Notes: generated by a model from the sequence alone, not told the origin. Counted from the first letter of the stretch, positions 16,648 through 37,448 are shown. The stretch is DNA of 37,448 bases from a virus (IMGVR_UViG_3300027498_000076:1-37448), one strand, 5' to 3'. A program made the numbers and translations.

Positions 16648-19600
16648 ATGGCAACAGAAAGAGAAATAGTATTTAGGGTCAGAATCAAAGATTTTGAAAA
16701 GCTTTTTTCTAATTTAGATGAATTAGAAAAGGATATTTCAAAGGTGAATACTGTGCTCAAGCAGACCGATAACGCACAAAATATCGGGGCATTAACCACA
16801 GAATTAGCAGCTCTCAAAGCACAACAAAAACAGGTCAATACAGAAATTAGAGTCCAAACCAAGTTGTTTCAAGGATTGGATGAAGCGAAAGGAAGCTTTA
16901 AGTCGATTAAAGCGGAAGCAGATTTTTTAAAAAATGCGCTCAAAGGTTTGGGAAAAGATACCAATTTAGATGAGTTTCAACAACGTCTGGAGGAACTTTT
17001 GCCATCTACAAAGTCTTTGAATTTGGAGACATTGGATTTTGAACAAACTCAACGAGCTTTAGCTACAAGAATTGTAGATAATCAGGTGGCAATGAAGGAG
17101 TTTAATAAGTCCATTTCTGCAAATGCCCAAGTTTTGGAATTTGCAGAAGGTTCTTACAAGAAACTCCAACAACAAACAGGTAGCTTGTCAAAAGAATTGA
17201 GGTTATTAGGAGACGAGCTTCCAGAGGGAGATTTGCGCCAACTTCAAAAAAGATTAGAGGAAATAGAGCCACGACTCAAAAAACACTCACTTTCGACGAA
17301 AGACCTCACCCAAACTAAAGACATTCTCTCTCGCCAAATTAATGAAAATAACGTTGAGCTTTCCGATTTCAATCGCAACCTTTCCGCATCCGACGAACTG
17401 GTGGGCGAATATAGTCGTGGTATTCTGAACGCCTTTGGAAAATTAGGGCTAACGGATAACTTGGAAAAAGGGCTTCAATCTCTTAATTCTCAAAAAAAAC
17501 TATTAAATGAGCAACTAAAGCAGTCTGTCAAATTGTATGATAGTCTTGACGACAAAGGGAGCGAGTCAGCAAACGCAATCCGTCGAGAAATTACTCGTCT
17601 TAACACGACCTTAGATAAGACGGATAGTCAAATTGATGAGATAAACAAGTCTTTAAAAAATAGTGCTGCTGAAACAAAAGCGGCATTTGGCGGCATTCAA
17701 AGCACACTTAATGCAGGACTTGGATTATTTGTTGCACAAGTCGGATTGCAGGGTGCAGATGATGTGATTCAGCAATTGAAAGACATTAGTGACGCAGAAG
17801 CTGATGCGGCCAAAACGACTAACTTAACCATTTCCGAAATAAGAGAGCTTAACAAGGAGCTTAAAAAGATAGATACCCGAACTCAGGAAAAGGATTTATT
17901 GGCACTTGTGGCGGCAGGTGGGAAGTTAGGGCAACAAGGCGCAGATAATTTATTAAGGTTTGCGGAATCGGCAGATAAAATCAAAGTAGCATTAGGCGAA
18001 GATTTGGGGGGAGATGATGCAATCAAAAGCATTGCCAAACTTGTTGAGATTTTCAATATAACTGATGATTTTCCTATCAATGAAGCTCTCTTAAAAGCAG
18101 GCTCTGTTATCAACTCACTTGGCGCAGCAGGAACAGCCAATGAGCAATTCATTGTCGATTTTCTTAGAAGAACGGCAGGAGCAGCCAAAACTGTCAAAGT
18201 GTCGTTTGAAGAATTAGCTGCAACAGGTGCTGTATTAGATGAAATCGGACAAAATAACGAAGCCGCCGCAAGTGCTTATCAAGCTCTTTTAATTGAAGTG
18301 GCAAAAAACCAAGAACGGTTTACTTCTTTGGTTGTAGATGGCGGGTTTGCAACAGCCGAAGGATTCAAGGAGCTATTGAGCAATAGTCCTGCTGAGGCCT
18401 TGAATTTAGTTTTGGAATCAGTAAAGTCTAGCGAAGAAGGTTTTAATTCGCTTGCAGACACATTGGCAAAGTCAGGCATTGAGTCAAACAGAGCTGCAGG
18501 AATTATTACAGCACTTAGTCAAAATGTTGATAAGCTTAGAAAAAGCCAAGAATTTTCAAGAAAAGAGTTTGAAAAGGGCGACTCAGTACTTAAAGAGTTT
18601 GAGACAAAAAATAACAACCTTGCAGCCGTAATTGAGAAAGTAAAAAAGGAGATAGCGAGCGTATTCACCGACTCAGGATTTTTGGAGGAAGCTGAAGGTG
18701 CAGGCACAGCAATTTTGGCACTTGCCAGAAATGCAAGCGGACTGTCAAAATTTCTACTTGCAAATAAAGACGTTATCAAGGCCCTCATTGTGGTTTACGC
18801 AGGATATAGAACAGTTCTGCTTGCTTCAAATGCCGCCACTATTGTAAACACGGCAGCCATAAAATTAGAAAACCTAGCACTTAGATTGAATCGTGCTGAT
18901 ACGTTGGCAGCAAGTGGCGCAAAGGTCACGATGGCCGCAGCTAGCGGAAACCTAAGAACGGCAGTCTTAGCACTTTGGACAGCCATGAAAGCTAACCCGT
19001 TGGGACTCATTACTGTGGCGGTTGGAGCGGTAGTTGGAGCGTTTATCATTCTTAATAGAGAACAAAGCAACACAGTCGCCAAATACAAGAGCCTTCAAAA
19101 AGCAAGCAAGGAAATAAGCCAAAAATTCACCAACGAAAAAAGAGTATTAGACCAATTATTTAAGTCCGTTCGTGAGGGAATTAAGGCGGCGGGTGATGAT
19201 GTACAAGCGAAGGCAAAGCAGGCACGAGCCATTGATACTATTAATGGAGTCTATGGAAAATACTTGCCAAATCTACTAACAGAAAAAACAAGCATAGACG
19301 AACTTGAAAAAAGCTATAAGTCCCTTAACAAACAGCTTCTCAATAACATCGTAACCGAAGCAAGAAAAGCCGAAGCAGACCAATTATTACAGCGTTCTTT
19401 AGAAGTTCAGCGAGAAATCACAGACATAAATAAGCAAGGATTCGCTAATACTACAGGATTCTTTGACGGCGTAAGTGAAACGTTGGGACAAATTGCAAAC
19501 CTTGATTTCACCGCCTATACAGAAGGTATAGACAGTGCTGCCATTAAGCAGCGAGAGGAAGAACTAGCAAAAATCAACAAAGACCTAAAAGAACTTAATG

Positions 19601-21966
19601 GCACATTTATCGATGTTGAAAAAAGAACATTAAAGCAATTTGAAAATCTTAATCTAACGGAAATTTTTGGAGAGGATGGAGGAAGTGAGGCGGCAGGTAA
19701 TTTGGGCGTCAATCTCGATCAAACGAAAACGAAACTTGAGAATCTTCAAAAAGCTTATGTCGACCTAAAGCAGAAGCAACAAGAAAGCGATGACTTGAAT
19801 GAAAAACAAGTTATTGGTAAGGAATTGAAAAAACTTGAAAAAAACATAAAAACCGCAGGTGGAAGTATCAAAAAAGTAGGTGATGATACCCGAAAAGCTT
19901 TGGAAGGAAGCATTAATTTCCTCAAAGATAAAATTTCGGAATTAAATGAGGAATTAGGTTTTGCTACCACCGATGAAAAGAGGTTTGAGATTGAAGCTAA
20001 AATAAAAGTCGCTGAAAACGCATTGAGCGAATTAGAGGGCGAAGCCAAAGAAAAAGTAATTGAACTACCCGTCAAAATTGAGGTGTTAGATAAGGAGATT
20101 GAGGAGCTTAAAGAAAAATTGAAAAGTGCGAGTGAGACAGATAAAATAGAAATCTTATCTGAATTAAAGCTAAAAAGCGAGGAATTAGACACACTCAAAA
20201 CTGAACTTTCCGAAATTGAGGATTTTGAAATTCTGTTAAAAATCAAAGTGCTTGATGAAGAAAAACAGAAATTAGAACAAGAACTTTCCCTATTAGAAGA
20301 TAAGGAAGTTGAAATTAAAACCCGAATAACCGAAATTAATGAGACCGTCACTTCTGCTACGACAGTTAGTGACGCAACAGGCGTGCCAGTAGAGACTTTT
20401 GAGCTAACTTTTGCCAAACAACAATTAGAGGAATTACAAGACTCCCTTGATGCCCTACAATCTGAAAAAACCAAGATTGAAGTAGAGATTGAAACCACTC
20501 AGACAGGTACAGCAGAGTTAGAGACAGGGCTATCAGAGGACGTACAAGCTGAAAGAATAGAAGTCAGAAAAACGGCAAAACAAGCAGAAGCCGACGCAAT
20601 ATTAGAGATACAACAGGAGCAAAAAGCAAAAGAGGAATCTTTGAGAGAGGAAGCCTTTGCCTCTATCGAATTTGATTCACAACGAGAAATCAATATTGCC
20701 ACGCAAGCCAAATCGCAAAAGCTTCTTGGATTGCTTGAAACTTTTGATAACGAGCTAATAACAGAGGAACAGTACAGGCAGCAAAGAGAACTAGCGGAGC
20801 AGGAACACCAAGATAGATTGGCGGAAATTCAGCTTGAAAAACTTAATGACCAATCCACATTGGTTGAAGAAGGGTCTATAGAATTCCTGACATCACAAGC
20901 TCAAATAAACGACCTTGAGTTTCAGCAGCTGCAAACACAGGAGCAGAGAAAAAGAGACGAGATCCAGAGAACTGTCGATTATGAAAAGGCGTTGCAAAAT
21001 GCCAGACTTGACCTAATTGGTACATTTGTCAGTGGTGCAAAAGATTTATTGAGTCAAGATGAATCAAACAGAAAAAAATACGCTGCTGTCATCAAGGCGT
21101 TGTCTATAGGAGAGATAGTTCTTAATACAGTTCGTGAGGTTTCTGCTATCAACGCAAATCCATTAGTGAATGCAGATATTAGCCAAGCACTTAGAATCAC
21201 ATTGACAGGTGCCGCCATTACCCGTGCTGCTATTGCAACAGCAAAAGTATTGTCACAAAAATTTAAAAAAGGTGGTGTCATAAACGGCAAAACCCCTGTA
21301 GGGCAGACAACCGACAACGGCTACGTTGATAGCGAGGGCGTGGCACATGGCGACCGCCACAAAGATAGCGAAAAGGAGCCTGGGGGAATTGGTGTAATGG
21401 TTGGCGGTCAAAGATATGAAATAGAAGATGGTGAAATGATTGTTGAAAATAATGGCGAGGTAATTATTCTAAACCGAAATGTTGGCAGCGATGCAGCTTT
21501 ACGGCAAAAAGTTTGGAGTATAAGAGATCATGTAGATCTTACACCACAGCAGAAAAAAGAAAAGCTATCTAAGATAAATGAGGAAAATGGGGGCGATTCT
21601 TTTGTCGGAGAAAGGGCGCATTCTTATTCTTTTGCCGCTCAAAATAGACCCGATAGTATCCAAATTCCTTCCATTTCTGCGATGTTAGGCGTTCCGACGG
21701 CAATTCCCTACGGAATAATAACCAGAACAATTGAAACGCAAACCTCAAATAAGCAGGTGGTAGAATCAAGCAGGGTGACAGGCAGTCAAATGATGTCTAT
21801 GTCAAAAAAGATACAAGAAAACATCGAGGGCATTGCTCTCAAAATTGACAGGAAAACCGATTCTATAAATAAGCGTATAGATAGAATTGAGGTGAATCTT
21901 TTCGTTGGTGAATTGTCTAAAACGCAAAACAGCATAAAAGTCAAAGCACAAAAAGGAAGAATATGA
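16648..21966 (+). CDS. Tail tape measure protein, 1772 aa
   Basis: This is the longest gene in the window. The N-terminal ~340 residues are heptad-like helices (KLFSNLDELEKDISKVNTVL, LEEIEPRLKKHSLSTKDLTQ). Residues about 350-620 match the TP901-type core, with GLFVAQVGLQGADDVIQQLK and LVAAGGKLGQQGADNLLRFA. A hydrophobic segment follows at about 781-800 (NPLGLITVAVGAVVGAFIIL), as is common in tape measures that reach the membrane. Residues about 1070-1330 are Glu/Lys-rich coiled coil. The C-terminus contains a Gly-rich part (GGVINGKTPVGQTTDNGYVD). At about 0.15 nm per residue the tail would be near 265 nm. No lysozyme or peptidase domain was seen. Confidence 0.92.
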   Translation: MATEREIVFRVRIKDFEKLFSNLDELEKDISKVNTVLKQTDNAQNIGALTTELAALKAQQKQVNTEIRVQTKLFQGLDEAKGSFKSIKAEADFLKNALKGLGKDTNLDEFQQRLEELLPSTKSLNLETLDFEQTQRALATRIVDNQVAMKEFNKSISANAQVLEFAEGSYKKLQQQTGSLSKELRLLGDELPEGDLRQLQKRLEEIEPRLKKHSLSTKDLTQTKDILSRQINENNVELSDFNRNLSASDELVGEYSRGILNAFGKLGLTDNLEKGLQSLNSQKKLLNEQLKQSVKLYDSLDDKGSESANAIRREITRLNTTLDKTDSQIDEINKSLKNSAAETKAAFGGIQSTLNAGLGLFVAQVGLQGADDVIQQLKDISDAEADAAKTTNLTISEIRELNKELKKIDTRTQEKDLLALVAAGGKLGQQGADNLLRFAESADKIKVALGEDLGGDDAIKSIAKLVEIFNITDDFPINEALLKAGSVINSLGAAGTANEQFIVDFLRRTAGAAKTVKVSFEELAATGAVLDEIGQNNEAAASAYQALLIEVAKNQERFTSLVVDGGFATAEGFKELLSNSPAEALNLVLESVKSSEEGFNSLADTLAKSGIESNRAAGIITALSQNVDKLRKSQEFSRKEFEKGDSVLKEFETKNNNLAAVIEKVKKEIASVFTDSGFLEEAEGAGTAILALARNASGLSKFLLANKDVIKALIVVYAGYRTVLLASNAATIVNTAAIKLENLALRLNRADTLAASGAKVTMAAASGNLRTAVLALWTAMKANPLGLITVAVGAVVGAFIILNREQSNTVAKYKSLQKASKEISQKFTNEKRVLDQLFKSVREGIKAAGDDVQAKAKQARAIDTINGVYGKYLPNLLTEKTSIDELEKSYKSLNKQLLNNIVTEARKAEADQLLQRSLEVQREITDINKQGFANTTGFFDGVSETLGQIANLDFTAYTEGIDSAAIKQREEELAKINKDLKELNGTFIDVEKRTLKQFENLNLTEIFGEDGGSEAAGNLGVNLDQTKTKLENLQKAYVDLKQKQQESDDLNEKQVIGKELKKLEKNIKTAGGSIKKVGDDTRKALEGSINFLKDKISELNEELGFATTDEKRFEIEAKIKVAENALSELEGEAKEKVIELPVKIEVLDKEIEELKEKLKSASETDKIEILSELKLKSEELDTLKTELSEIEDFEILLKIKVLDEEKQKLEQELSLLEDKEVEIKTRITEINETVTSATTVSDATGVPVETFELTFAKQQLEELQDSLDALQSEKTKIEVEIETTQTGTAELETGLSEDVQAERIEVRKTAKQAEADAILEIQQEQKAKEESLREEAFASIEFDSQREINIATQAKSQKLLGLLETFDNELITEEQYRQQRELAEQEHQDRLAEIQLEKLNDQSTLVEEGSIEFLTSQAQINDLEFQQLQTQEQRKRDEIQRTVDYEKALQNARLDLIGTFVSGAKDLLSQDESNRKKYAAVIKALSIGEIVLNTVREVSAINANPLVNADISQALRITLTGAAITRAAIATAKVLSQKFKKGGVINGKTPVGQTTDNGYVDSEGVAHGDRHKDSEKEPGGIGVMVGGQRYEIEDGEMIVENNGEVIILNRNVGSDAALRQKVWSIRDHVDLTPQQKKEKLSKINEENGGDSFVGERAHSYSFAAQNRPDSIQIPSISAMLGVPTAIPYGIITRTIETQTSNKQVVESSRVTGSQMMSMSKKIQENIEGIALKIDRKTDSINKRIDRIEVNLFVGELSKTQNSIKVKAQKGRI

Positions 21967-24613: not shown

Positions 24614-24919
24614 ATGAAAAAGTTTTTATTTGTTTTTCTATTGTCTTTTATAGCGTTTGTTGGATGTGCCAAAGATGAAAATGATACTTGTGATATTACA
24701 GGTAGTTATGTTAGTTGTGATAATGAAAATCATCTTTTAGATATAACTTCAAATTCTATGAAAAGTACAATAATTATTTTTGACGATACTTCAGTATCTA
24801 GTATAGGCTATCAGCTTGAAGATTGTGAATTTATCACTTTTTCAGGTATGACAGAGGGAATTAGTTTTACAGATAGTACGCTATTAATTGGTATAAATCA
24901 ATGGTGTAAAATACAATAG
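24614..24919 (+). CDS. Small lipoprotein
   Basis: A 101-residue protein with a signal peptide and lipobox (MKKFLFVFLLSFIAFVGC, lipidated Cys 18). The mature part is a beta-rich domain with three further cysteines (CDITGSYVSCDNEN). It begins 20 bp after the baseplate gene and may be expressed late, or independently. Phage lipoproteins in this location often act in superinfection exclusion; that is a possibility only. Confidence 0.7.
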   Translation: MKKFLFVFLLSFIAFVGCAKDENDTCDITGSYVSCDNENHLLDITSNSMKSTIIIFDDTSVSSIGYQLEDCEFITFSGMTEGISFTDSTLLIGINQWCKIQ

Positions 24920-25450: not shown

Positions 25451-25459
25451 ATTGCCCTA

Positions 25460-25503
25460 AAAAAGGCATGTGCTTGTTTGAATGAACAAGCACATGCCTT
25501 TTT
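25460..25503. terminator. Strong bidirectional terminator between tail and head modules
   Basis: A perfect 19-bp stem: AAAAAGGCATGTGCTTGTT (25460-25478) and its complement at 25485-25503, with a 6-nt loop. With A- and T-ends it can work in both directions. The remaining 25504-25590 is a leader with no gene; a promoter for the head operon is expected there, but I see no clean TAnnTTTG. Confidence 0.88.
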
Positions 25504-25590
25504 GCTTTACATCTCTTTGGTGTTGAGCGTTATTTGTATATCAATCGCAAGAATTAAATTATTGCATAACCCAAAAACGAGAAAAATGTA

Positions 25591-26838
25591 ATGTCTTTTG
25601 AAGTAACAAACGAAAACAAATTGACCGTTTATATTGACGGAGATATAGGCGGATGGTGGGGGATAAACAAGCAGGAATTTAGATGGTATTTACAGCGTTA
25701 TGGGCGAGGAAAGGATATTGATTTGCTTATTTCTTCTCCTGGTGGAAATGCTGATGATGCGTTAAACATCTATGACTTATTATCTACTTGTGAAGGAAAT
25801 ACAACTGCATACCTTTCTGGTTTTGTTGCTTCAGCAGCGACGATTGTAGCGTGTGGGTGTAAGAAAATTGTAATGACTGAGCAATGTATTTACATGTATC
25901 ATCGTGCAAATGGATGGGCAGAGGGAGATCGAGATGATATGAGAAAAGCCGCTAATACGCTTGAAAAAGTAGATAATATCATCAGCAATATTTATCATAA
26001 AAAAACAGGTATGAGTGATGAGCAGCTTCAAGAGCGCATGAAAGAAGAAACCTATCTAAGTTCTGCTGAAGCTGTAAGTGATAAGTTTGTAGATGAAGTT
26101 GTTCCTAACTTTAGCGGAATGCAAGTTATGAACAAAGCCAATTTATCAAGCATTGAAAATAAATATGGTAAAATTCCAGAAAATTTAATGCCTAAAGCTT
26201 CAAGTAATCCAAAAATCGAAAACAAAAATTTCTTTACAAAAATGGAAGAAAAATTTAACAAGTTATTCAAAAACTTACAAGAAAAATTCAATATCACACC
26301 TAAAAACCAACAAGATGATAAGGGTGATATTGGTGCTCAACTTGAAGAAATTGTCAAAAATACTCTTGGTGATACTGACAATCCTTCAACCATTGAGGAT
26401 GCAATTACCAATAGTGGTAAAGACCGTTCTTTGATTATTGCAGAAATCGCAGAAGAAGCCGACTGTCGAATCTCTGAGGTGAAAAATGCCTTAGAAGGAA
26501 AAGGAGGTAGTGATGATATTTTGGCTGCTATTTCCAATGTTTTGAATATTGAGAAAAGTGTTATTCCTAAACCTCAAAATAGTGGTGAAAGCTCTGATTT
26601 GTCGGCTGATGATATTGCAAAAATCATTGACCAAAAGTTTAAGGAGCAAAATCAAAACATCCAAAACAAACTCGACGAAGCAATACAAAAAGCGGGAGGA
26701 GGAAGTATTACTAATGGCGGTGATGGTGATTGGGGCAATGGAGAAGAATCCGCAGAATTAGATGGTTTAAGCCATCTTGGAAAGGCGGGAGCTAAAGCTA
26801 TGGGAATTACTAACAAAAAGAAAAAAGGAGGTAAATAA
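25591..26838 (+). CDS. ClpP-like prohead protease with scaffold-like C-terminus
   Basis: A 415-residue protein. Residues 1-170 are a ClpP/S14-type serine protease: YIDGDIGGWWGINKQEFRWY, LLISSPGGNADDALNIYDLL, catalytic Ser81 in GFVASAATIVACGC, His104 in YMYHRANGW, and the closing YLSSAEAVSDKFVDEVV. Residues 190-415 are charged, helical and coiled-coil-like with a Gly-rich end, as in protease-scaffold fusions in which the tail helps assemble the prohead and is cleaved. A long scaffold fits a phage with no separate scaffold gene. The stop overlaps the next start (TAATG). Confidence 0.88.
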   Translation: MSFEVTNENKLTVYIDGDIGGWWGINKQEFRWYLQRYGRGKDIDLLISSPGGNADDALNIYDLLSTCEGNTTAYLSGFVASAATIVACGCKKIVMTEQCIYMYHRANGWAEGDRDDMRKAANTLEKVDNIISNIYHKKTGMSDEQLQERMKEETYLSSAEAVSDKFVDEVVPNFSGMQVMNKANLSSIENKYGKIPENLMPKASSNPKIENKNFFTKMEEKFNKLFKNLQEKFNITPKNQQDDKGDIGAQLEEIVKNTLGDTDNPSTIEDAITNSGKDRSLIIAEIAEEADCRISEVKNALEGKGGSDDILAAISNVLNIEKSVIPKPQNSGESSDLSADDIAKIIDQKFKEQNQNIQNKLDEAIQKAGGGSITNGGDGDWGNGEESAELDGLSHLGKAGAKAMGITNKKKKGGK

Positions 26839-27668
26839 TGGCATACGGAAAAGAGTTAAAAGTACATCGGCTCAATACAGGAGCGAGTAAAGGCAACGCC
26901 TTGAATCTTTATAGCAATATGGGAATTTGTCCTTGTGGTCAGGGACAGTGTTATCCTTATCTAGCTTACGAATTTTCAGAGGATAAAAAAAGTATCACTT
27001 TCAAAGACTTGTCTGCTACACATGGCGATGATGAAGTGAAATCTTGGTACACAGAAATTTTTGATGAAAATTCGGAGGTAGCTCAAGCAGACCACAGCCA
27101 ACCAATGGCTGATGTATCTGCCCTTTCTACTATGGGTAATTGGACAATCAACCATTACATCACCACAAAACAAGGTTGTAAAGGAGAGACAAAAACCCAA
27201 ATAGGAGCTTGCTGCGGAGGTAGTGGAGATAATCTTCCTCCTGTTAAAGCCAATGATGACCACTTTGCGTCTGATTTTTCTGCTCCAATGACATTGGACA
27301 TCTTAAAAAATGATCAACAATCTTGTAAAGAACCTACAATTACTATCACCAAAGAGCCAGAAGTTGGAAGTGTGAAAATTGAAAATGGAATGGCTGTTTA
27401 TACGCCACCTGAAATTTTACCTTCAGACTTCAAAGGAGTCGAGTTTGAGTATGAGTTAGAATGCTGTGGTAAAAAATCTACTGCAACAGTCATGATTGAA
27501 TTCAATCCACCTGAAGCACCAGAAGGCGAAGCTCCAACAGGCACAGTGAGCGTTGAATGCTCAGAGGAAGAAGCAAAAATGATTGAAGAAAGTAGAGCAG
27601 CAACGAAAAAAGCAGCCGAAGAAGAAGCGAAAAAAGCAGCTAAAACCAAGAAAAAGAAGACGACATGA
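26838..27668 (+). CDS. Head-associated protein with an Ig/cadherin-like domain
   Basis: A 276-residue protein. The N-terminal ~135 residues are unknown and include GICPCGQGQCYPYL. Residues about 136-220 (VKANDDHFASDFSAPMTLDI, ILKNDQQS, SVKIENGMAVYTPP, KGVEFEYELECCGKKSTATV) match the cadherin-like/Ig-like repeat pattern (N-D-D-x-F ... D-I-L-x-N-D ... Y-T-P) seen in bacterial surface proteins. The tail is an Ala/Glu/Lys-rich helix ending in KTKKKK. There is no signal peptide, so it may decorate the head or bind surfaces. It is coupled at both ends (TAATG and ATGA). Confidence 0.65.
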   Translation: MAYGKELKVHRLNTGASKGNALNLYSNMGICPCGQGQCYPYLAYEFSEDKKSITFKDLSATHGDDEVKSWYTEIFDENSEVAQADHSQPMADVSALSTMGNWTINHYITTKQGCKGETKTQIGACCGGSGDNLPPVKANDDHFASDFSAPMTLDILKNDQQSCKEPTITITKEPEVGSVKIENGMAVYTPPEILPSDFKGVEFEYELECCGKKSTATVMIEFNPPEAPEGEAPTGTVSVECSEEEAKMIEESRAATKKAAEEEAKKAAKTKKKKTT

Positions 27669-30031
27669 GATTTCTAACAACCTTATTAATATTACTTCTA
27701 TCATTTTCTTCTTTGGTTTTCAGCCAAGAAACTTGCGTGATAGTTACAGATGTGAATCTTGGCGAATGTGAAGGTGCGAAAATACAATTTGTTTCAAGCG
27801 AAAACTTCCAAGTCTTTGAGTCTCCTGATGGTATGACCTGGACCAACCAAGTCGATGAAGCAACCATCAACTACGATGTAGTGGGTGATGTGATTGCCTT
27901 TGAGTCTGAAAACGGACTTATCACCTATGATGGGACTGATATTTCTATTGTGAGTGGTAGTGATGCACCCTATTACATAATCTATTACAAGGTCTGCAAA
28001 ACCTGTGTCTATAACGGCTTCAACAAAACTCTATGCAGCGAATTTGGCTGTACAGTAATTAAGGGAGGAGGTGAGTATAACCCTTGCGAGGGGGTTATGT
28101 GCGAACCGCCTTTGGTTTGTGTAGATGGGGAATGTATAGACCTATGCGCAGATGTGAAATGCGATGAGGGATATGCATGTGAAGATGGGGAATGTGTAAT
28201 TACAGATCCTTGTGCCGATGTGTCCTGTGAAGAAAATGAAATCTGTGATGGCGGTGAGTGTATTGGCAAAACGCCATCACTCACGATTGAAAAACAAGCC
28301 AATACAGAATCAACAACAGCAGATGGGACGCCAGCCTACAAGGATGGTATTGAATATAGTTACACGATTACCGTCATCAATGATGGAGATGTAGACCAAA
28401 CAGATGTAATGGTCTTTGACCAGCTTCCTATGGGATTGACAATTGTTGGCGACGACTCAGGAGGGGCTTATATAGCTCCTGATTGGACTATTGGCGATTT
28501 GGCTGTTGGAGAAATGGCAACATTGACCATTGACGTGATGCCCAATACAGATGGCGAGATAGATCTGCTTAACCTGGCTTCTGTCAGTTCAAGTGAATTG
28601 CCAGAAATCATCGAGGTAGAGAGCCTACTTCCAGAAGTACCTTGTACAGAATGTTGGAAGTTTCCACATCACGATAATGCAACATTTCATGATGGCAGTG
28701 CATACATTCCTGTTCCTTTGCCCAACTTCACTGGATCCCATACAGGACAAGGTTCTGTAATGATGGGAGTTGATAGCGGTCAAGGCATCGTTTCAAATCA
28801 ATATTTTTGGAACTTGGGCGGACAAAATGCAATTGGTTTCAAACGAGGGCAGGAATATTCTATATCAATTATTAGGACTAATTGCGCCGAAGATTGCGAA
28901 ACGGATATAAGGTTTTTGGGAGAGAAAAAGGCATGGTCTTTTCTCTTAGCCCAAGCCTTAACTGATAATCTTAATGGCACATATGCCTTTGGGGTTAATG
29001 GTACTGTCGGAACAGGAGCGAATTTGTTAGGTGGATTTGGGGGGTATGTACATGGAACGCCTGTTAATTGTGAATCGTGTGAATTGGAATCTTACAGAGT
29101 CAATCCAGTGAACAAGCAAGGAGAAATCTTGAAAGATATTTGGGTTGAAGTCGTGGTGGGATATACCACCTACCAACTTTGCGAAGAAGCACCCGAACCA
29201 GTCACAAGCATAATTAATTGTGAGGGAGGCGAATGTTCATGCGAGTTCCAATTAGTAGACCACAACAACGGAAACGAACCCGTAACAGAACTGTCACTTA
29301 GTTGTAAGGGAGAATATCATGTACTTGTAGATGATTGTACAAGCGTAACATCAATATCTTTGGTTCAAGGCGAAACGGTCATTGAAGGTGTTGTTACTGA
29401 AAACGGAAATGGAATATTGCAATTAGATGGCGTAGAAGCAGGAAGTTATCTTTTTTCTTTGGGAATTGATGGATGTGATGATGTTCGCTTGAAAGCTGTT
29501 GTTGATTGTGAGAAGTGTAGAAATGTTTGCGTCTGGTGTGCTGCTGACAACACGCCTAGGTTTGCAAAGCAAAATGGTGAAATTTTGAACTTGACAAAAG
29601 ATTTGAATGGAAATTACTATGAATCAGGAGATTGTAGTGGAAATTCAAAAAACCTGAATGAAACTATTATAGATGGAGAAACATTTGTAAGCACTTGGAT
29701 GGAAGTTGATTGTAATCAACGTGTGTTTACTGTTGATAATGTAATTTCTTTGAGCCAAACCACAAATTGGATTCTACGTGATTGCAATGGCGTTAACGTC
29801 TCATCTTCTTTTAGTGGCAATATTAAGGACTTTTTTGATTTTTTGGGACTTAATTATTCCGTTGGGAGTCCCGTAAATCAAAATAGTACTGTTTCTTATA
29901 TCATTGATAACTTTGATTCTGTTTTTAGCTCTTTTTGCTTTGACTCTAACGACCTTTCACCATTCTATCAAGGCACGCCGCCAAATGAGTTAGATAGAAC
30001 CTTCCCAAAATGCAATTGTAATTCCAAATGA
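27665..30031 (+). CDS. Secreted Cys-rich protein with DUF11 domain
   Basis: A 788-residue protein with a Sec signal peptide (MRFLTTLLILLLSFSSLVFS, cleavage after residue 20). Residues about 138-202 hold three Cys repeats of the CxxVxCxxxxxCxxGxC type (CADVKCDEGYACEDGECV). Residues 203-325 match DUF11 (LTIEKQANTESTTADGTPAY, YSYTITVINDGDVDQTDVMV, LPMGLTIVGDDS). The rest has further Cys-rich beta domains. Such modules are typical of Bacteroidota surface or secreted proteins. It is coupled by ATGA overlaps both to the Ig-like gene and to the metalloprotease, inside the head operon. It could be an exported adhesin or envelope-modifying factor; phage virion proteins do not normally carry signal peptides. 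Confidence 0.7.
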   Translation: MRFLTTLLILLLSFSSLVFSQETCVIVTDVNLGECEGAKIQFVSSENFQVFESPDGMTWTNQVDEATINYDVVGDVIAFESENGLITYDGTDISIVSGSDAPYYIIYYKVCKTCVYNGFNKTLCSEFGCTVIKGGGEYNPCEGVMCEPPLVCVDGECIDLCADVKCDEGYACEDGECVITDPCADVSCEENEICDGGECIGKTPSLTIEKQANTESTTADGTPAYKDGIEYSYTITVINDGDVDQTDVMVFDQLPMGLTIVGDDSGGAYIAPDWTIGDLAVGEMATLTIDVMPNTDGEIDLLNLASVSSSELPEIIEVESLLPEVPCTECWKFPHHDNATFHDGSAYIPVPLPNFTGSHTGQGSVMMGVDSGQGIVSNQYFWNLGGQNAIGFKRGQEYSISIIRTNCAEDCETDIRFLGEKKAWSFLLAQALTDNLNGTYAFGVNGTVGTGANLLGGFGGYVHGTPVNCESCELESYRVNPVNKQGEILKDIWVEVVVGYTTYQLCEEAPEPVTSIINCEGGECSCEFQLVDHNNGNEPVTELSLSCKGEYHVLVDDCTSVTSISLVQGETVIEGVVTENGNGILQLDGVEAGSYLFSLGIDGCDDVRLKAVVDCEKCRNVCVWCAADNTPRFAKQNGEILNLTKDLNGNYYESGDCSGNSKNLNETIIDGETFVSTWMEVDCNQRVFTVDNVISLSQTTNWILRDCNGVNVSSSFSGNIKDFFDFLGLNYSVGSPVNQNSTVSYIIDNFDSVFSSFCFDSNDLSPFYQGTPPNELDRTFPKCNCNSK

Positions 30032-31959
30032 AAAAACTAATCTACATATTATCAATCCTTTTCGCTTTTTCCTTACAAGGGCAAAATTGCGAATTGAAAG
30101 GCGATGCTGGCGAATTGTGCAATTGTGCAGGAGCGAGCCACAACGACGAAGCCGACAGGAAGTTTGAACGCTTATTTCTTGCTTCTCCGATTGACGAGCG
30201 TGAAAGCAGTAGCGTTGAGACACCTATTATTACGGAAGTATTACAGCACTTTCCAATGTCATTTTCTTTTCGATTCGAAGCAGGAAAAGCGGACGGATTC
30301 ACGTACTACATCTATCAAGGCGACAAACGCCTAATAGCTAAAGCACTAAGAGGTGACAGAAGTACAACTTCGTATCTAAGTGCAGAAGATTTGCAGCTAA
30401 CAGATTATGATACGCCTTTGACAGTTCAAATCAAAGCAAGGTACAAAGGCAAGGAGAGCAAGAAAGGGAGTATTGAGGTTATGCCGATTAAGAGGAAGCC
30501 ACTTGCACACAAATCTTATGAATTTCAATATAGATGGAATCGTGAATATGGTATTGATGGCAGAACAGGCGACAGGACAGAAGGGTGGACGCAAGCAGAA
30601 ATAAACGAATTAGAGCCAAAGGTGAAATATATCATTAAATGGCTTGAAAAAGCCTATGGCAATCCTGCCAGCGACTTACCTTTTGTATTTACAAAATTCG
30701 AGAACTCTTCTAAGGCATATAAAATTCCTGCTTATGGAGAGCTTAGGTTTTCAAAAGATATTGATATTCGACTGTTGGGTCACGAATTAGACCATGCTTG
30801 GTGGTGTCCTACGAATCTCACTGTTGATGCCAATTGGAAGTATGATAGTGCCAATAGTTTCTTAGAAGAAAGCAGGGCTGAATATATTGGTCGCCAGATT
30901 GCAAATGAATATAATTGGAACGGTCATCTATATGACTACTATAATACGTCTGCAATAAGAGCCAATGAATTCTTTTTTGCAGATGGTGCAATGAATGAGC
31001 AGTACGTTCAATATGGAATTGGTGCAGAAGCTGTGAAAAAGATGGAATACTCAATACCTGATATTATTTCAAATTTCTATGAAATAGTTTGTACATCACT
31101 CACCAGAAATCCAGAGACAATAACAAAGGACTGGATTCGCTACAAGTTGATTGAAGCAAGCGAGGGAGAAAGAGTTGAGGGAATGGGGTTTGCTGATTGG
31201 TACGATGCTCAACACATATTTGATGGGGGCGTTTTTGAAGGGGAGAGAATTTACCAAACTATCGATTATACAAGTATTAATGATTTAGAGACTTTATGTG
31301 AGAATCGATTTTACCTGATAGATGTATTTGATAATGGGAATGCTTGGGAATCTGATGATGGACAGAAATACAATAAGAATGGAGAGATAGGACATATTAG
31401 GGTAACAAAACATTCTGGTGAAGTTGTATTTGATGAAGATTTACAAATTACACCGATTGAGCATAAAAGAAAAATAGGAAAGGTGCGTATCACCCTATCA
31501 TCAGCAGATGAAGAAAATAGTTTTACTTCTCGTCGAAGCAATTTCGATGACCATCACATAATCTTTGTAGAACCAGAACTGAACCTTTACAAGATTGAGG
31601 TAGAGTTCGGAGAAAATACATTAAAGACTTATCGAATTTTTGGAAATATTGACGATGAATCTGACCTGATACTTGTTGGAGTACCTAATGTACGAAATGG
31701 CACATTATGGACAACCGGTGATGATGGATTTGATTTGGAAAACGGCGTTGCCGTCGTGAATAACTTCGAGGGCGGAGAATTGGCGACAAACTTTGGCACA
31801 AGAATTCTACCAACAAGCAAATACACTCAACACGTCATCTTTGAAGGGCAAAAAGCACCAACAGAAGAAACGCCAACAGAAACAACACCTGAAGAAGGCT
31901 GCGAAAACGAAGTAATCTTAAAAGAATTGAGACGGCTTATAAACAAATTTGAAAACTAA
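30028..31959 (+). CDS. Secreted zinc metalloprotease (HExxH)
   Basis: A 643-residue protein with a signal peptide (MKKLIYILSILFAFSLQGQ). An Ig-like beta region precedes the catalytic domain, in which LLGHELDHAWWCP supplies the HExxH zinc motif (His252, Glu253, His256). The glutamates in FLEESRAEYIGRQIA (Glu281 or Glu285) are spaced like the third ligand of gluzincin peptidases. The C-terminal part is beta-rich and ends with a Thr/Pro/Glu linker and a helix (NEVILKELRRLINKFEN). It is coupled to the secreted Cys-rich gene by an ATGA overlap and precedes the capsid gene. A likely role is cleavage of host envelope or extracellular protein during release or superinfection control; its substrate is unknown. 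Confidence 0.75.
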   Translation: MKKLIYILSILFAFSLQGQNCELKGDAGELCNCAGASHNDEADRKFERLFLASPIDERESSSVETPIITEVLQHFPMSFSFRFEAGKADGFTYYIYQGDKRLIAKALRGDRSTTSYLSAEDLQLTDYDTPLTVQIKARYKGKESKKGSIEVMPIKRKPLAHKSYEFQYRWNREYGIDGRTGDRTEGWTQAEINELEPKVKYIIKWLEKAYGNPASDLPFVFTKFENSSKAYKIPAYGELRFSKDIDIRLLGHELDHAWWCPTNLTVDANWKYDSANSFLEESRAEYIGRQIANEYNWNGHLYDYYNTSAIRANEFFFADGAMNEQYVQYGIGAEAVKKMEYSIPDIISNFYEIVCTSLTRNPETITKDWIRYKLIEASEGERVEGMGFADWYDAQHIFDGGVFEGERIYQTIDYTSINDLETLCENRFYLIDVFDNGNAWESDDGQKYNKNGEIGHIRVTKHSGEVVFDEDLQITPIEHKRKIGKVRITLSSADEENSFTSRRSNFDDHHIIFVEPELNLYKIEVEFGENTLKTYRIFGNIDDESDLILVGVPNVRNGTLWTTGDDGFDLENGVAVVNNFEGGELATNFGTRILPTSKYTQHVIFEGQKAPTEETPTETTPEEGCENEVILKELRRLINKFEN

Positions 31960-31976
31960 GAAATATACTTATAAAC

Positions 31977-33143
31977 ATGAAAACTATTCCTATTCAAAAA
32001 ACAAAGGTTCATGTGGTGCTACTTAGAGCCAATGTTGGCTCACTCATCACGACAATCAACAACGACTCAACGACTCAGCGTCAGGTCATTTTTGAACCGA
32101 TGTTCACCCACAACAATCCATTGAACATGGATAGTTATCTGTACAGGGTATTTAGAAATGTTGAGAAAAAAATCCCAATGACCTACATTGGAGGTACTAA
32201 GATTGTGATGGGTGCGCCACAGCGATGTAATAAAAAGTACATTAGCGGCTCAACTGGCAGACAAGGAGAGTTAAACGTCTGTGATTGGGCGACTTATCTC
32301 AAGCAATGTATTGATGAGTTTTTGCCTTGCATGGAAGACTACATTTCTGGAGAATTAAAAGGACTCCGTTTTTGGTCGGATAACCAAAAAGCTCGTGCTT
32401 TCTGGTTTGCCTTTACTAGTTGGATTCGGAATTCTTTGCAAAACAATATTTATCAATCCATCTGGTTTGGTGACACTAATTTAGAGTTAAAAGACTGGAA
32501 ACATTGCCCGAATCTCACTGACAAAGAAAATCAACGCCTGTTTTTCATGCTTAGTCGTTGCAAAGGGATTTGGCAAGATCTATTGGAGCATGGAAGAATT
32601 TTCCTTGATATTCCGAAAGGTGAGCTTCCCGAAGAATACGCAATCACCCTTTTTGAAAAAATGTGGAAAAAACGTTCTTTGCTTCTGAAAACATTCCCAA
32701 AGAACCAGATTTGTTTTGTTGTATCTGAAAGCGTTTTTGATAACTACATTGATTGTCTCAAAGACCCTAAAGGACAAATTAGCGAAACCTACAACTTGTT
32801 CATTAATGGGACGCCAATAGATGGAGTCTACAAATGGTGCGGCGTAAATGTGATAAGAAAATCTGATTGGGACTTTTTTGATATGGCGTACATGTGCCAA
32901 GAGGAAGATGATCAGTACCATAGAGCTATATTAACAGCGCACAATAACTTTGGAGTCGGTACTAATATTCGTTCAACAGTGCCGCAAATGGAAATTTGGC
33001 AAGGATCAAGGGAAGCTCTTAACCACGAATGGATGTATTCAGAAAGCGAGTTTAAAATTGGTGGCGGTCTTGTTAATCCAGAACTTTCTGTCGCTGCCCG
33101 AACTGGCGCAAATTCAGACAGCAAAAAATTAATTGCCTTATAA
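31977..33143 (+). CDS. Major capsid protein
   Basis: A 388-residue protein with the pattern of Bacteroidota phage major capsid proteins: an N-terminal arm, a helical middle (EFLPCMEDYISGELKGLRFW), the P-domain-like strand region (KNQICFVVSESVFDNYIDCL, YNLFINGTPIDGVYKWCGVN, VIRKSDWDFFDM), and a typical C-terminal segment (AILTAHNNFGVGTNIRSTVP). The position after the protease/scaffold gene supports this, although two exported proteins and an Ig protein lie between. The fold is presumably HK97-like. It is unusually rich in cysteine (about 10). Confidence 0.8.
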   Translation: MKTIPIQKTKVHVVLLRANVGSLITTINNDSTTQRQVIFEPMFTHNNPLNMDSYLYRVFRNVEKKIPMTYIGGTKIVMGAPQRCNKKYISGSTGRQGELNVCDWATYLKQCIDEFLPCMEDYISGELKGLRFWSDNQKARAFWFAFTSWIRNSLQNNIYQSIWFGDTNLELKDWKHCPNLTDKENQRLFFMLSRCKGIWQDLLEHGRIFLDIPKGELPEEYAITLFEKMWKKRSLLLKTFPKNQICFVVSESVFDNYIDCLKDPKGQISETYNLFINGTPIDGVYKWCGVNVIRKSDWDFFDMAYMCQEEDDQYHRAILTAHNNFGVGTNIRSTVPQMEIWQGSREALNHEWMYSESEFKIGGGLVNPELSVAARTGANSDSKKLIAL

Positions 33144-33162
33144 ATTAAATTTCAAAATAAAT

Positions 33163-33825
33163 ATGAAAAAAATATATAAAAAAGAAGATATTGAGGTAGT
33201 TGGGCAAAAAAAAGTTCACGTACTTTTGTTTCTTTCGAATTACAAACTCGGCACAACAACAGCCGATGGTGCAAAAAATTGCAAAAGCTGTAAAGCAGGT
33301 GTTGCAGCCATCTATCTTAATGAAAAATCCAATGTAGATGGCTATGTCTTAGATATTGACGGGTCTATTCGTGCCACTTTTATAAATCCTGCACAGCCTG
33401 AGCCACGGTTTAAATGTTACGAGTTTGAAGAAGACACGGCTTACTGGACACAGACCTACACAACAAAAAATAAAGGCTGTAACTCAAATATTGCACATAA
33501 AATTGAGTTCAAGGAAAGCTGTATGTCAATTGAAATGTGGGAACTCCTAACTTCCCTTCAAGATGAATCTTGTTGTGGAATGTTGGCAATCGTGAAAGAT
33601 TGCAACGGCAAATACTGGCAGGTAGGAGCTGACTACGACGAAACGCCTGGGCTTACGGCACGAGAAGCATTTATTTGTAGTAAATTGTATTTGGCAGATG
33701 GAACATCAACAACCACAGGAGTGAATCCAGAAAATGATTCCAACGAAGGAGTAATTACGCTCAATACAACAACCCAAAAATGGGCGAGATGCATCCAAGC
33801 GGGTGCGTTCCCAATTGCGGCTTAA
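33163..33825 (+). CDS. Cys-rich structural protein, decoration or tail-tube candidate
   Basis: The frame opens at 33133 but ATG 33163 is the natural start (MKKIYKKEDIEVVGQKKVHV), 20 bp after the capsid stop, giving 220 residues. The product is beta-rich with some 12 cysteines (NCKSCKAG, ESCCGM). The stretch GKYWQVGADYDETPGLTARE suggests a tube-like or decoration fold. Not recognised by family. Confidence 0.55.
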   Translation: MKKIYKKEDIEVVGQKKVHVLLFLSNYKLGTTTADGAKNCKSCKAGVAAIYLNEKSNVDGYVLDIDGSIRATFINPAQPEPRFKCYEFEEDTAYWTQTYTTKNKGCNSNIAHKIEFKESCMSIEMWELLTSLQDESCCGMLAIVKDCNGKYWQVGADYDETPGLTAREAFICSKLYLADGTSTTTGVNPENDSNEGVITLNTTTQKWARCIQAGAFPIAA

Positions 33826-33862
33826 ACCATATTTTTAATTTTTTGAAAACTCATATAAAGCT

Positions 33863-34294
33863 ATGAATAATAAATATCGGGTTAATCCAGATGGTAGTCC
33901 GCAGATACATACAGACAATCTATTTAGAGGAAGGTCTATCATAATTGCTGCCGAACCGTTAAGAGCTGGAGCCTATAAAGATAAGCCTGTCGCCACCCAA
34001 AAGGAGCTTAAAGCGATTCACTTAGCCTATCCTGGTCTTTACAGTGGGCTAATTTTGCGACCTGACAATGAGGTGAAGAATGAGCAAGATGATTTGGTGG
34101 ACAAGTTACTTGAGCAGTTGGAGGCCAAGGAGAAAGAGGAAGCAATGATCAGGGAAGCAGAAGACAAGGCGAGAAAGAAATTTGAAGACAAGGTGAAGCG
34201 ATTAGCTAAAGAAGCCGAGGATAGAGCCAAAGCGGAAATGGAAGCGGCAAGGGCCAAGGAGGAAGGGAATAAGACTGGTAATGAAGGGGAATAA
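33863..34294 (+). CDS. Head-associated protein with C-terminal coiled coil
   Basis: A 143-residue protein. The N-terminal ~65 residues form a small mixed domain (YRVNPDGSPQIHTDNLFRGR, KAIHLAYPGLYSGLILRP). The rest is a charged helix (DKLLEQLEAKEKEEAMIREA, KARKKFEDKVKRLAKEAEDR), a likely coiled coil. Not recognised; its place before the portal suggests an accessory head or internal scaffold protein. Confidence 0.6.
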   Translation: MNNKYRVNPDGSPQIHTDNLFRGRSIIIAAEPLRAGAYKDKPVATQKELKAIHLAYPGLYSGLILRPDNEVKNEQDDLVDKLLEQLEAKEKEEAMIREAEDKARKKFEDKVKRLAKEAEDRAKAEMEAARAKEEGNKTGNEGE

Positions 34295-34307
34295 TAATTG
34301 ATTATTT

Positions 34308-35768
34308 ATGGCGAAAAAACGCTCAAATAGAAAAAGGGGAAATCAAAATAGGAGCAAAGAAATCCAGCATGAAAATGCTGGATTTCTTTTGCCTGTTAAA
34401 AACATAGCTCCTTCTGCCCCATTGCCAACAGAAGATGATGGTACTCATAACACCAATCGTTATGATTATCATCGTTGGTATAACAATGGAACTGATTTTG
34501 TCAGAAATCTTCAATGTCTTGCAGAACTTTCTCCGACACGTTCAGCTTGTATTGGAGATAAAACTTGGCTATCAATGGGAGATGGCTTCACTATTAATCG
34601 TAGAAGCCGTTCAGGTATTTTTGCAGCTTTTCAATTTTTCAAAGAGCATATTGTTGGCATTGAAGATAAGGGTAGAGATTTGGTTGCAGACTTCTTGGAG
34701 TCTAAGAACAATGACGGTGAAAACCTGTATGAATTACTAGAACAATCTTTCAGGAATTATTACGGACTTGGAAATGTTGTTGTTGAACTTGTTAGAGGGT
34801 CGGTTTTAGGGGAGCGATATTTTAAGGTATATGTTCACCAAATAGCTGACTGTGTTTTGTCTAAGCCAAAAAAGCAGAGGGGAAAACAATATGTGCTAAT
34901 TGCCAAAAAGAAAAATGTCTTTTCTTCTAACGGACACCCTCCAACAAAAATACGATTAGGAGAGTGGGAGCGAAATGGAAAAGAGGAGCGTATGGCAATT
35001 TGGATAAAAGATGAGAAGATAGGACGTAAAATTTATGGTGTTCCTTCAGGAGCGTCATCTATTAAATGGCAAATGTTAGAATGTCTTTCTCCTTGTCATG
35101 TTATTCGTCGGGTTGAGGACGGTTTTGCCGCAGATACTTTTATCGAATTGGTTGAGCGAAAAACGCTCACTAAAAAACAGCAAAAAGCCATTAAAGATAT
35201 GTTTCTCCAAAAGTTTACCAATATGGAGATTGAAGGATTGGAAGATGTGCAGAAGGAGAGTGTTATTACCCGATTTGTTCAGGATCCAGAGATGTTCTCT
35301 AAAGTGCACAATCTGCAACGTAATGATGATTATAGTTACATCAAAGAGTCTCTTTTAGATGCAGAGCGTAATATCTTAAAGTCGGAACATTGGTCGCCTA
35401 TTTTATTAGGTGTTTCAAAGAATAATTCCATTGGGCGAAGTAGAGAAATATCGGATGCCATTAATTTGGCAACAATAAAGATAATTAGGCCCACTCAAAA
35501 TAAAATATTAAGCAGATTTATAAATACTGCTTTGAGAGAATGGGGGCAGTGGATGGGTCATGATAAATCTATTAGTGGATATAGTGTAGATGTTTCAAAA
35601 GGCATTAATCCATTTGTGGAAATGAATCCATCTGGTACCATGACTATTAATGAAGTTCGAGCGATGAATGGAATGCCACCGCTTTCTGATGCCAAAGGGA
35701 ATTTGCGACCAGAAGGTTTTGAACTTGCTACTCTTAGACAAACCAATCAAAATGTCAAAGTCAGTTAA
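34308..35768 (+). CDS. Portal protein
   Basis: A 486-residue protein with the pattern of phage portals: basic N-terminus, then SPTRSACIGDKTWLSMGDGF and SFRNYYGLGNVVVELVRG (wing strands), the stem-type region (ALREWGQWM, preceded by RPTQNKILSRFINT), and a C-terminal crown-like segment with MTINEVRAMNGMPPL. The PxxxNxxR-like ending MTINEVRAMNGMPPLSD is common in portals. It forms the dodecameric ring through which TerL packages DNA. Its gene lies after the capsid rather than before it, a rearranged order. Confidence 0.8.
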   Translation: MAKKRSNRKRGNQNRSKEIQHENAGFLLPVKNIAPSAPLPTEDDGTHNTNRYDYHRWYNNGTDFVRNLQCLAELSPTRSACIGDKTWLSMGDGFTINRRSRSGIFAAFQFFKEHIVGIEDKGRDLVADFLESKNNDGENLYELLEQSFRNYYGLGNVVVELVRGSVLGERYFKVYVHQIADCVLSKPKKQRGKQYVLIAKKKNVFSSNGHPPTKIRLGEWERNGKEERMAIWIKDEKIGRKIYGVPSGASSIKWQMLECLSPCHVIRRVEDGFAADTFIELVERKTLTKKQQKAIKDMFLQKFTNMEIEGLEDVQKESVITRFVQDPEMFSKVHNLQRNDDYSYIKESLLDAERNILKSEHWSPILLGVSKNNSIGRSREISDAINLATIKIIRPTQNKILSRFINTALREWGQWMGHDKSISGYSVDVSKGINPFVEMNPSGTMTINEVRAMNGMPPLSDAKGNLRPEGFELATLRQTNQNVKVS

Positions 35769-36423
35769 AAAAAAAGGAATATTTGATTTTTACAAAAATC
35801 TAATTACTCCTGATGAAGTCAAATCAAAGGGGCCATTCTCAAAAACATATGACCCAAATTTGGTATGTCCTTTCATCCCTGTTGTTGTCGGAAGTTGGTG
35901 TGATTGTTTTGGATTGGAGTTTCTAATGGAGGTGTATAAACACAAATGCGAGAACTGGGAAAATGATGTGCAGCCTGAACCAGAAGGGATTTTTGGAGGA
36001 TGTGGGTATTTCCAGTATATGTGGGAGACTTTCATGTGTCCTTTTTTGGCTTTTGCTATTGCCCGAAAAAATCTATATCCTTCTACATACCGCCATACGT
36101 CGAAGGGAACGGCTAAATTGGATGATGGGTCAATGAAAGCACTTGATGGCAAAGAGCTTGCCACCTATAGTCGGGAGCTGCAAACTGATGTACAGATTCT
36201 TTTTAACAACCTCCATCAATTTCTTTGTCAATTTCCAGAAGGGTACTCTAATTATTTAGGACTTCCAAAAGTGGAGACAGGGGGATGTGGGACTGAGGAA
36301 AACAATAATTGTGCTACAGAACCGACAGGCGGTTTTGCCTTTGAAATTCCAACGGATAAGAAAGAGGAGAAAAAGGGATGTTGTAAAAAAAGAAAGTCAA
36401 AACAGAAAAAGTGGTACACATGA
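35752..36423 (+). CDS. Head-tail adaptor-like Cys-rich protein
   Basis: The frame is open from 35668, but ATG 35752 (MSKSVKKKGIFDFYKNLITP) overlaps the portal stop by 17 nt and is the probable start, giving 223 residues. It is Cys-rich (VGSWCDCFGLEF, GGCGYFQYMWETFMCPF) with helical segments (LQTDVQILFNNLHQFLCQF) and ends in a basic Cys tail (KKGCCKKRKSKQKKW). Adaptor-type proteins often follow the portal. Not recognised more precisely. Confidence 0.55.
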   Translation: MSKSVKKKGIFDFYKNLITPDEVKSKGPFSKTYDPNLVCPFIPVVVGSWCDCFGLEFLMEVYKHKCENWENDVQPEPEGIFGGCGYFQYMWETFMCPFLAFAIARKNLYPSTYRHTSKGTAKLDDGSMKALDGKELATYSRELQTDVQILFNNLHQFLCQFPEGYSNYLGLPKVETGGCGTEENNNCATEPTGGFAFEIPTDKKEEKKGCCKKRKSKQKKWYT

Positions 36424-36656
36424 GAAAGGTGGTACAAAAAATAGCAGAAACTGTTGCAGAAAATTTAGGAGAGTTGGTATCTAAGCAGGAGCGATACCGT
36501 CGGCTTTCAATTTGCCTGAAGAACACCTGTGAAAAATTGAATGAAAAAGAAGAGTGTGAGGGGTGTTGGTGTAAAGTGAGAGAAAAAACGAAATACAAAA
36601 CTATTGAATTACCAGGTAAAACGGTAATAATTCATTGTCCAGCCAAGCTATGGTAA
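36420..36656 (+). CDS. Small Cys-rich protein, 78 aa
   Basis: ATG 36420 overlaps the previous stop as ATGA; a GTG nine bases upstream is an alternative. The product has an N-terminal helix (RKVVQKIAETVAENLGELVS) and a Cys cluster (KNTCEKLNEKEECEGCWCKV) that may bind zinc or form disulfides, followed by a short strand pair (YKTIELPGKTVIIHCPAKLW). Not recognised. Confidence 0.55.
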   Translation: MRKVVQKIAETVAENLGELVSKQERYRRLSICLKNTCEKLNEKEECEGCWCKVREKTKYKTIELPGKTVIIHCPAKLW

Positions 36657-36662
36657 AATATT

Positions 36663-36860
36663 ATGAATAAATTGAAAACAACATATAATTACTTATTAGA
36701 AAAAGCAGGTGCTTGGTGGGCAGGACTGTGTTGTTGGAGTTTGTCTCTTGCAGATGTAATCCAATATATTCAATTTACAACAGCATTACTAGGATTTTTC
36801 TTTATGGCTGTACAAATCATCTATTGGTGGAAACACCGAAATAACAATAATAATGGATAA
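36663..36860 (+). CDS. Putative holin (small membrane protein)
   Basis: A 65-residue protein with a hydrophobic N-terminal segment (AGAWWAGLCCWSLSLADV) and a clear transmembrane helix (FTTALLGFFFMAVQIIYWW), followed by a basic/Asn tail. Size, two membrane segments, charged end and position one gene before the endolysin fit a holin. It overlaps the next gene by 8 nt. Confidence 0.55.
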   Translation: MNKLKTTYNYLLEKAGAWWAGLCCWSLSLADVIQYIQFTTALLGFFFMAVQIIYWWKHRNNNNNG

Positions 36861-37086
36861 TCAAGATTTTATATATGAGCTTTTAGGGCTTGTTTTAGCA
36901 CTTTATGAAATTGTAGTGGCTTATTACCCAACAGTAAAGAATTATTCTGCAATTACAGCAATATTCAAGGTATTACGTCTTGTTTTGCCAAATAGAAAGT
37001 CGGGAGGTGGTCATCACAGACTCAAAGAGAAAACTCGGCTTGAGCCAATTAGAGGAATTAAGAAACTTTTAAGAAAGGCATCATGA
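36853..37086 (+). CDS. Small lysis-cassette protein
   Basis: A 77-residue protein with a hydrophobic N-terminal helix (IYELLGLVLALYEIVVAYYP) and a basic C-terminus (GGGHHRLKEKTRLEPI). It resembles small proteins with a conserved YPTVKNYSAI core that precede endolysin genes in Bacteroidota phages. It may be a second holin component or a spanin-like accessory protein; the ATGA-type overlap with the endolysin (37083) supports membership of the lysis cassette. Confidence 0.55.
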   Translation: MDNQDFIYELLGLVLALYEIVVAYYPTVKNYSAITAIFKVLRLVLPNRKSGGGHHRLKEKTRLEPIRGIKKLLRKAS

Positions 37087-37448
37087 CACTATCGAATAAG
37101 CAAAGAATATTTACCAGGAATATTTCCCTACTTATACAATTTGCCTACTCAATAGGGTATGAGGGTGTATTGGCAGAAGTAGCCCGAACAGATTATCAAC
37201 AAGAAAGGTATGTTGAACTTGGGTTAAGTAAAACGTTAAACTCTCTCCATAAAAAAAGATTGGCAGGAGATATTTTCTTTTTCAAAATTGGAGGTAAAAA
37301 AGTTATTGAAAATAAAGAAGAGCTTCAGCAAATTGGCGATTTTTGGGAGTTTCTTCATCCTCAAAATGAGTGGGGAGGAAATTGGAACTCTTTTTATGAT
37401 TCGCCACATTATCAAATGAATGAGAATCGTGCAAGAAAATCAAAGTAG
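37083..37448 (+). CDS. Endolysin, M15-type peptidase
   Basis: A 121-residue protein matching phage M15 (VanY/L-Ala-D-Glu-type) endopeptidases: SLHKKRLAGDIFFF carries the zinc ligands His56 and Asp63 of the SxHxxGxAxD-type motif, GDFWEFLHPQNEWGGNW is the conserved middle, and YDSPHYQM holds the third ligand His109. It would cut peptide cross-bridges in host peptidoglycan. It has no signal peptide, so it needs the holin upstream. The stop codon is the last three bases of the window. Confidence 0.87.
   Translation: MTLSNKQRIFTRNISLLIQFAYSIGYEGVLAEVARTDYQQERYVELGLSKTLNSLHKKRLAGDIFFFKIGGKKVIENKEELQQIGDFWEFLHPQNEWGGNWNSFYDSPHYQMNENRARKSK

Follow-up and report, generated by a model that had tools for sequence, protein, structure and literature searches.

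The window analysed here, the complete 37,448 bases of a virus record, carries a gene for a predicted exported zinc peptidase of a previously undescribed family. The reading that we favour, with a probability of about 0.42, is that the product is a late exported zinc endopeptidase, representing a new gluzincin family, that would cleave host envelope proteins and aid lysis or release. The features needed to follow the argument are these, in window coordinates:

1622-2014, minus strand: repressor-like HTH ORF, read from the sequence
9688-11124: terminase
16648-21966: tape measure protein (PhageMin_Tail, 9e-13)
about 25459-25504 (approximate), no strand assigned: probable terminator, a near-perfect inverted repeat with A/T-rich flanks, read from the 156-nt gap before the head operon
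25591-26838, plus strand: ClpP-type head maturation protease, opening the operon (PHROG 94, E = 9e-50; Pfam CLP_protease, 9e-26)
26838-27668, plus strand: Ig-like protein (Big_9, below cut-off) with no signal peptide, overlapping the head protease gene by 1 nt
27665-30031, plus strand: exported Cys-rich protein with EGF-like repeats and a DUF11 domain (E = 7e-15), ATGA-coupled to the peptidase gene
30028-31959, plus strand: predicted exported gluzincin-type zinc peptidase, 643 aa (from signal peptide, family conservation and motif)
30781-30795, plus strand: HELDH zinc-binding/catalytic motif, residues 252-256 (H252, E253 and H256 invariant in 13 sequences)
30868-30870, plus strand: E281, predicted third zinc ligand within ExxA (invariant in 13 sequences)
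31977-33143, plus strand: major capsid protein (MCP), from weak homology plus synteny
34308-35768, plus strand: portal protein, from weak homology plus synteny
36663-37086, plus strand: holin candidates, two small membrane-protein ORFs (36663-36860 and 36853-37086), from position before M15 and hydrophobicity
37083-37448, plus strand: M15 endolysin (Peptidase_M15_4, 1.5e-6), its stop codon being the last codon of the contig

The window is a phage of Bacteroidota. Annotated relatives of its terminase are mainly phages of this phylum; the closest match is a locus of Lewinella sp. W8 (41% identity), and the terminase of Flavobacterium phage 11b is 33% identical to it. The repressor-like HTH ORF on the minus strand suggests that the phage is temperate. 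From 25591 to 37448 every gene lies on the plus strand with no gap above 37 nt, in the order ClpP-type head protease, Ig-like protein, exported DUF11 protein, peptidase, MCP, ORFs 33133 and 33863, portal, ORFs 35668 and 36411, the two small membrane ORFs and M15, the peptidase gene being co-linear with both the capsid and the lysis genes. The holin candidates matched no family, and a scan for the promoter consensus TTTG-N-TAnnTTTG found no plus-strand match. The initial annotation had placed the peptidase gene in an ATGA-linked chain with head genes, and so it proved: it sits between the head protease and MCP genes, the Ig-like and DUF11 ORFs and then the DUF11 ORF and the peptidase gene being joined by ATGA overlaps, with 17 nt between the peptidase and capsid genes.

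The further suggestion, that the phage's strategy lies in the coupling to the capsid operon as such, is not supported. The window MCP and portal are weak homologs of those of a Hymenobacter prophage, in identical order, and the same is true of a Spirosoma locus. In both of these, and likewise in L199, a further locus whose head protease is homologous, the gene in the MCP position directly follows the head protease (gaps of 70, 103 and 58 nt), an order that marks the three ORFs at 26838-31959 as an addition in the window phage. In two other phages, moreover, the peptidase gene lies behind holin and endolysin genes. On this comparison of gene orders, capsid coupling is peculiar to the window phage, and linkage to lysis genes recurs. 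What stands of the earlier proposal is a phage-encoded peptidase with a signal peptide, HExxH and a downstream Glu, co-linear with capsid genes, for which action on the envelope around lysis is plausible.

The protein begins with MKKLIYILSILFAFSLQGQNCE. It comprises a signal peptide (residues ~1-19), an FN3/Ig-like region recognised by eye (~70-150), the catalytic domain (~155-425) and a C-terminal Cys plus heptad-like tail. N-terminal hydrophobicity reaches 2.75 over 11 residues, on a par with the window's other exported-looking proteins, and the protein is probably exported via a cleavable signal peptide. The signal peptide and the HExxH at 252-256 had been noted before, as had a candidate third Glu ligand; three residues (E280, E281 and E285) could fill that place, and E281 alone is invariant in the relatives. 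By chance, HExxH arose in 487 of 20,000 shuffles of the protein, and as such is weak evidence on its own. The fuller pattern HExxH-(14-45)-ExxA[EDSA][YFW] arose in one of 20,000 shuffles and in none of 4,777 other ORFs of at least 100 aa (1.0 million residues). AlphaFold models built without an alignment had a pLDDT of 33 for the whole protein and 35 for the domain alone.

The zinc-peptidase assignment rests on a conserved family and not on the motif only. No entry in Pfam, NCBIfam, PHROG or PDB matched the peptidase. Searches with the single protein gave no homolog in phage, plasmid and IMG/VR collections (scans of viral and genome contigs; tblastn of phages and plasmids) and no real homolog in a phylum-wide sample of 396 genomes, where matches at E values of 0.01-0.08 were taken as chance; scans of viral contigs with peptidase and MCP profiles likewise found nothing. 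Clear homologs were present among 299 genomes of Lewinella's order. Profile searches placed the family in 6 of 20 genomes of one bacterial family and in 7 of 399 of the order, and whole-genome searches found 12 homologs in the order of Lewinella. When the 13 sequences were aligned only 14 positions were invariant, H252, E253, H256 and E281 among them; A284 is conserved in at least 90%. The family thus shows both gluzincin hallmarks, HExxH and a Glu at least 14 residues downstream lying within E-x-x-A. That the peptidase represents a new gluzincin family, with chromosomal and phage members, is well supported by this pattern of conservation together with the profile comparison described next.

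The domain is similar to peptidase family M1 (Pfam PF01433, clan MA gluzincins) in its HExxH, its downstream Glu in ExxA and its active-site profile. When aligned with M1 peptidases at the active site using hhalign, the domain profile gave a probability of 70% (E = 4e-5), while four unrelated control profiles gave <1%; the invariant Y329 may, we presume, correspond to the catalytic Tyr of M1. However, HExxH and Glu are separated by 18 residues in M1 and by 24 in the window peptidase (H256 to E281), which also lacks the GxMEN motif; given this spacing and the absent motif, we do not class it as an M1 enzyme. The window protein gave no match to the M1 entry of Pfam, and the best homolog (E = 0.044) fell short of the cut-off. 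The region around HExxH in two chromosomal homologs matched DUF5700 (Pfam PF18958, a putative zinc-dependent peptidase; E = 1.7e-4 and 6e-4), with scores of 21.5 and 19.7 bits against a cut-off of 25. These sub-threshold matches speak for the peptidase reading; the window protein itself did not match, and the hhalign comparison with a true DUF5700 protein was insignificant. Matches to the DNA pattern for GHELxHAW were unrelated proteins only. Zincin-like ORFs bearing HELAHATW...EFWAE occur in gut Bacteroidota loci with related terminases (L086, L099, L120-L124, L126-L128, L132, L135 and L144); their spacing differs, they gave no blast match, and they were treated as unrelated.

Most homologs are chromosomal, and several of these have no signal peptide and appear cytoplasmic. 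One chromosomal copy (L257), with an apparent T9SS C-terminal domain in addition to its signal peptide, adjoins another secreted HExxH protein. The family is also carried by three other contigs that contain phage genes, all within genome assemblies: L229 (G484:C153), L230 (G503:C268) and L255 (G503:C211). The first two have most genes in common (the L230 terminase matches PHROG at 3e-23); their head genes showed no detectable homology to those of the window, but the window M15 is homologous to theirs (1e-21 for L229 and 1e-19 for L230). In both, the order is holin, M15, peptidase: the L229 gene preceding M15 matches a holin family (E = 8e-4), and the peptidase starts ~17 nt after M15 in L229 and ~4 nt after it in L230, counted from the lipoprotein start codon. 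L255 is a different phage (terminase 4e-23, integrase 9e-23, Erf 6e-37, portal 2e-6). Directly behind its gluzincin gene lies one for a lipoprotein matrixin (L255:11560-12408; Peptidase_M10, E = 2e-19), giving tandem exported metallopeptidases. The L230 and L255 copies have a lipobox and the window copy a signal peptide, so that three of the four phage copies look exported; the fourth, in L229, lacks a signal peptide, and the genes after it are of structural type. In a maximum-likelihood tree the phage copies fall apart: a single origin was rejected for all four (AU p = 3e-4) and for those of the window, L229 and L230 (4e-11). The simplest reading is that the gene has moved repeatedly between phages and hosts, although the end branches are long and the details of the tree unsure.

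The course of events that we propose is as follows. The peptidase would be a late product, encoded in the operon that also includes the capsid, holin-like and endolysin genes, and would cross the inner membrane by Sec. Zinc would be held by H252, H256 and E281, with E253 as the catalytic base. The enzyme would then cleave host periplasmic, outer-membrane or surface proteins, and the loosened envelope would allow the holin and M15 endolysin to complete lysis, or progeny to leave the debris. Action on the envelope late in infection is suggested by the late operon shared with lysis genes, by the signal peptide or lipobox that three of the four phage copies carry, and by the gene order holin-M15-peptidase in two phages. 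The matrixin beside the L255 copy and the signal peptide and apparent T9SS domain of L257 speak for the same reading. The gene, its conserved catalytic residues, the operon, the repeated carriage by phages and that gene order are observed; we infer export, activity, substrate, timing and a benefit to lysis. Counting against a role in lysis, the window gene adjoins that of the MCP and not M15, although the operon is shared. Export is not universal in the family either; the strongest points against a role confined to the envelope are the leaderless L229 copy and the leaderless chromosomal copies.

Some features of the peptidase recall phage spanins: it is late and envelope-targeted, it lies near holin and endolysin genes, and the L230 and L255 copies are lipoproteins. 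It differs from them in being a predicted catalytic peptidase, not a membrane-fusion protein; the signal peptide of the window copy has no lipobox, and the L230 copy has a lipobox with no later transmembrane segment. A simple, crude scan found no convincing spanin candidate in the window, L229 and L230 contigs, which favours the lysis reading; a point against it is that, according to a later survey, the spanins of Bacteroidetes phages are exclusively unimolecular (PMC12596118). The way in which the outer membrane is opened by phages that have no recognisable spanin is a stated open question, and the published list of such phages includes Bacteroides and Croceibacter phages (PMC6139136). For this step, a family that phages of one order gained more than once, with the gene placed after holin and endolysin in two of those phages, offers a concrete candidate. 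A stronger version of the proposal, in which holin, M15 endolysin and exported gluzincin form a lysis cassette of Bacteroidota phages and the peptidase replaces spanins by cutting envelope proteins, is doubtful at present; if true, it would be a previously undescribed route to disruption of the outer envelope.

Proteolysis at the envelope could serve lysis, release from debris or the removal of receptors, and the data fit all three. The last of these, put forward in the initial annotation together with the detachment of progeny, underlies an alternative that we consider unlikely, in which the enzyme is the same as in the lysis reading and the benefit is different: by removing a receptor or adhesin, it would keep sister phages from re-adsorbing to infected cells or debris (surface remodelling or superinfection exclusion). 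The export signal, the late operon and the second exported metallopeptidase beside the L255 copy agree with this, but nothing points to a receptor or substrate, and the recurrent place beside holin and endolysin fits lysis at least equally well.

A peptidase carried on the virion or tail, perhaps through its C-terminal Cys and heptad-like tail, and cutting surface proteins at entry, is distinctly less probable. That tail is found in the window, L229 and L230 copies and is absent from the chromosomal copies compared, and the leaderless L229 copy with the structural-type genes behind it would suit such a role; however, the signal peptide or lipobox of the other three phage copies would take the protein out of the cytoplasm, where virions are assembled.

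Slightly more improbable again is lysogenic-conversion cargo, that is, a host peptidase acquired by phages that benefits the lysogen (in nutrition or competition) and plays no part in the phage's own cycle. The predominance of chromosomal homologs speaks for it, as does the nearest relative of the window copy being chromosomal (L228, 30-33% identity). So does the tree, in which the phage copies do not form one clade. Against cargo, the late operon around the gene leaves no space for a promoter or terminator of its own, such as a moron would have (an ATGA overlap before it and 17 nt after it), and two other phages have the gene beside their lysis genes. A known example of exported proteases spread by mobile elements in this phylum is the C10 group of Bacteroides fragilis (PMC2873492). 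These differ in being cysteine peptidases, and they are described for mobile elements in general, with no mention of a late phage operon.

An intracellular role, with leaderless members acting in the cytoplasm on, for example, components of host conflict systems, is very improbable: the nearest homolog, L228, is leaderless and lies 58 nt behind an EAD11-trypsin gene, but the window protein starts with what looks like a typical signal peptide, and lipoboxes mark two of the other phage copies. The L228 neighbourhood (L228:2286-6254; G513:C413) contains, besides the EAD11-trypsin gene (Trypsin_2 4e-22, EAD11 8e-16), a second EAD11 gene, and is possibly a bacterial conflict locus; domains of the EAD11-trypsin kind have reportedly been described in such systems.

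Several other genes deserve mention. Exported Cys-rich proteins that recall the window DUF11 protein are encoded in L229 (1526-5626) and L230 (11201-12901), just upstream of the gene that precedes the one in the MCP position; one of those in L229 is DUF11-like by eye. The match between the window DUF11 protein and the L230 exported protein lies mainly in the EGF-like repeats, and orthology is not claimed. Judging from these loci, the placing of exported proteins next to head genes may be more general among these phages. Conserved in both L230 (13522-14787) and L229 (1-946), on the opposite strand next to the head module, is a gene for a di-haem cytochrome c peroxidase-like protein (CCP_MauG, 1.8e-10). 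In the window, the tail region encodes a retropepsin-like aspartyl protease (15084-15497; Asp_protease_2 3e-8, RVP 5e-5), and a small lipoprotein-like ORF of 101 aa (24614-24919), with an FVGC lipobox and no later transmembrane segment, precedes the head operon. An N6/N4 DNA methylase gene (8055-9291) is seemingly split into overlapping ORFs (8055-8633 and 8611-9291), which appears to be a natural frameshift or an assembly error. Finally, an exported DUF4468 protein (1e-15) is encoded on the minus strand at 1035-1592, and a homolog of it (1e-18) occurs in the Hymenobacter prophage (L200:10666-11247, minus strand), just before the head protease.
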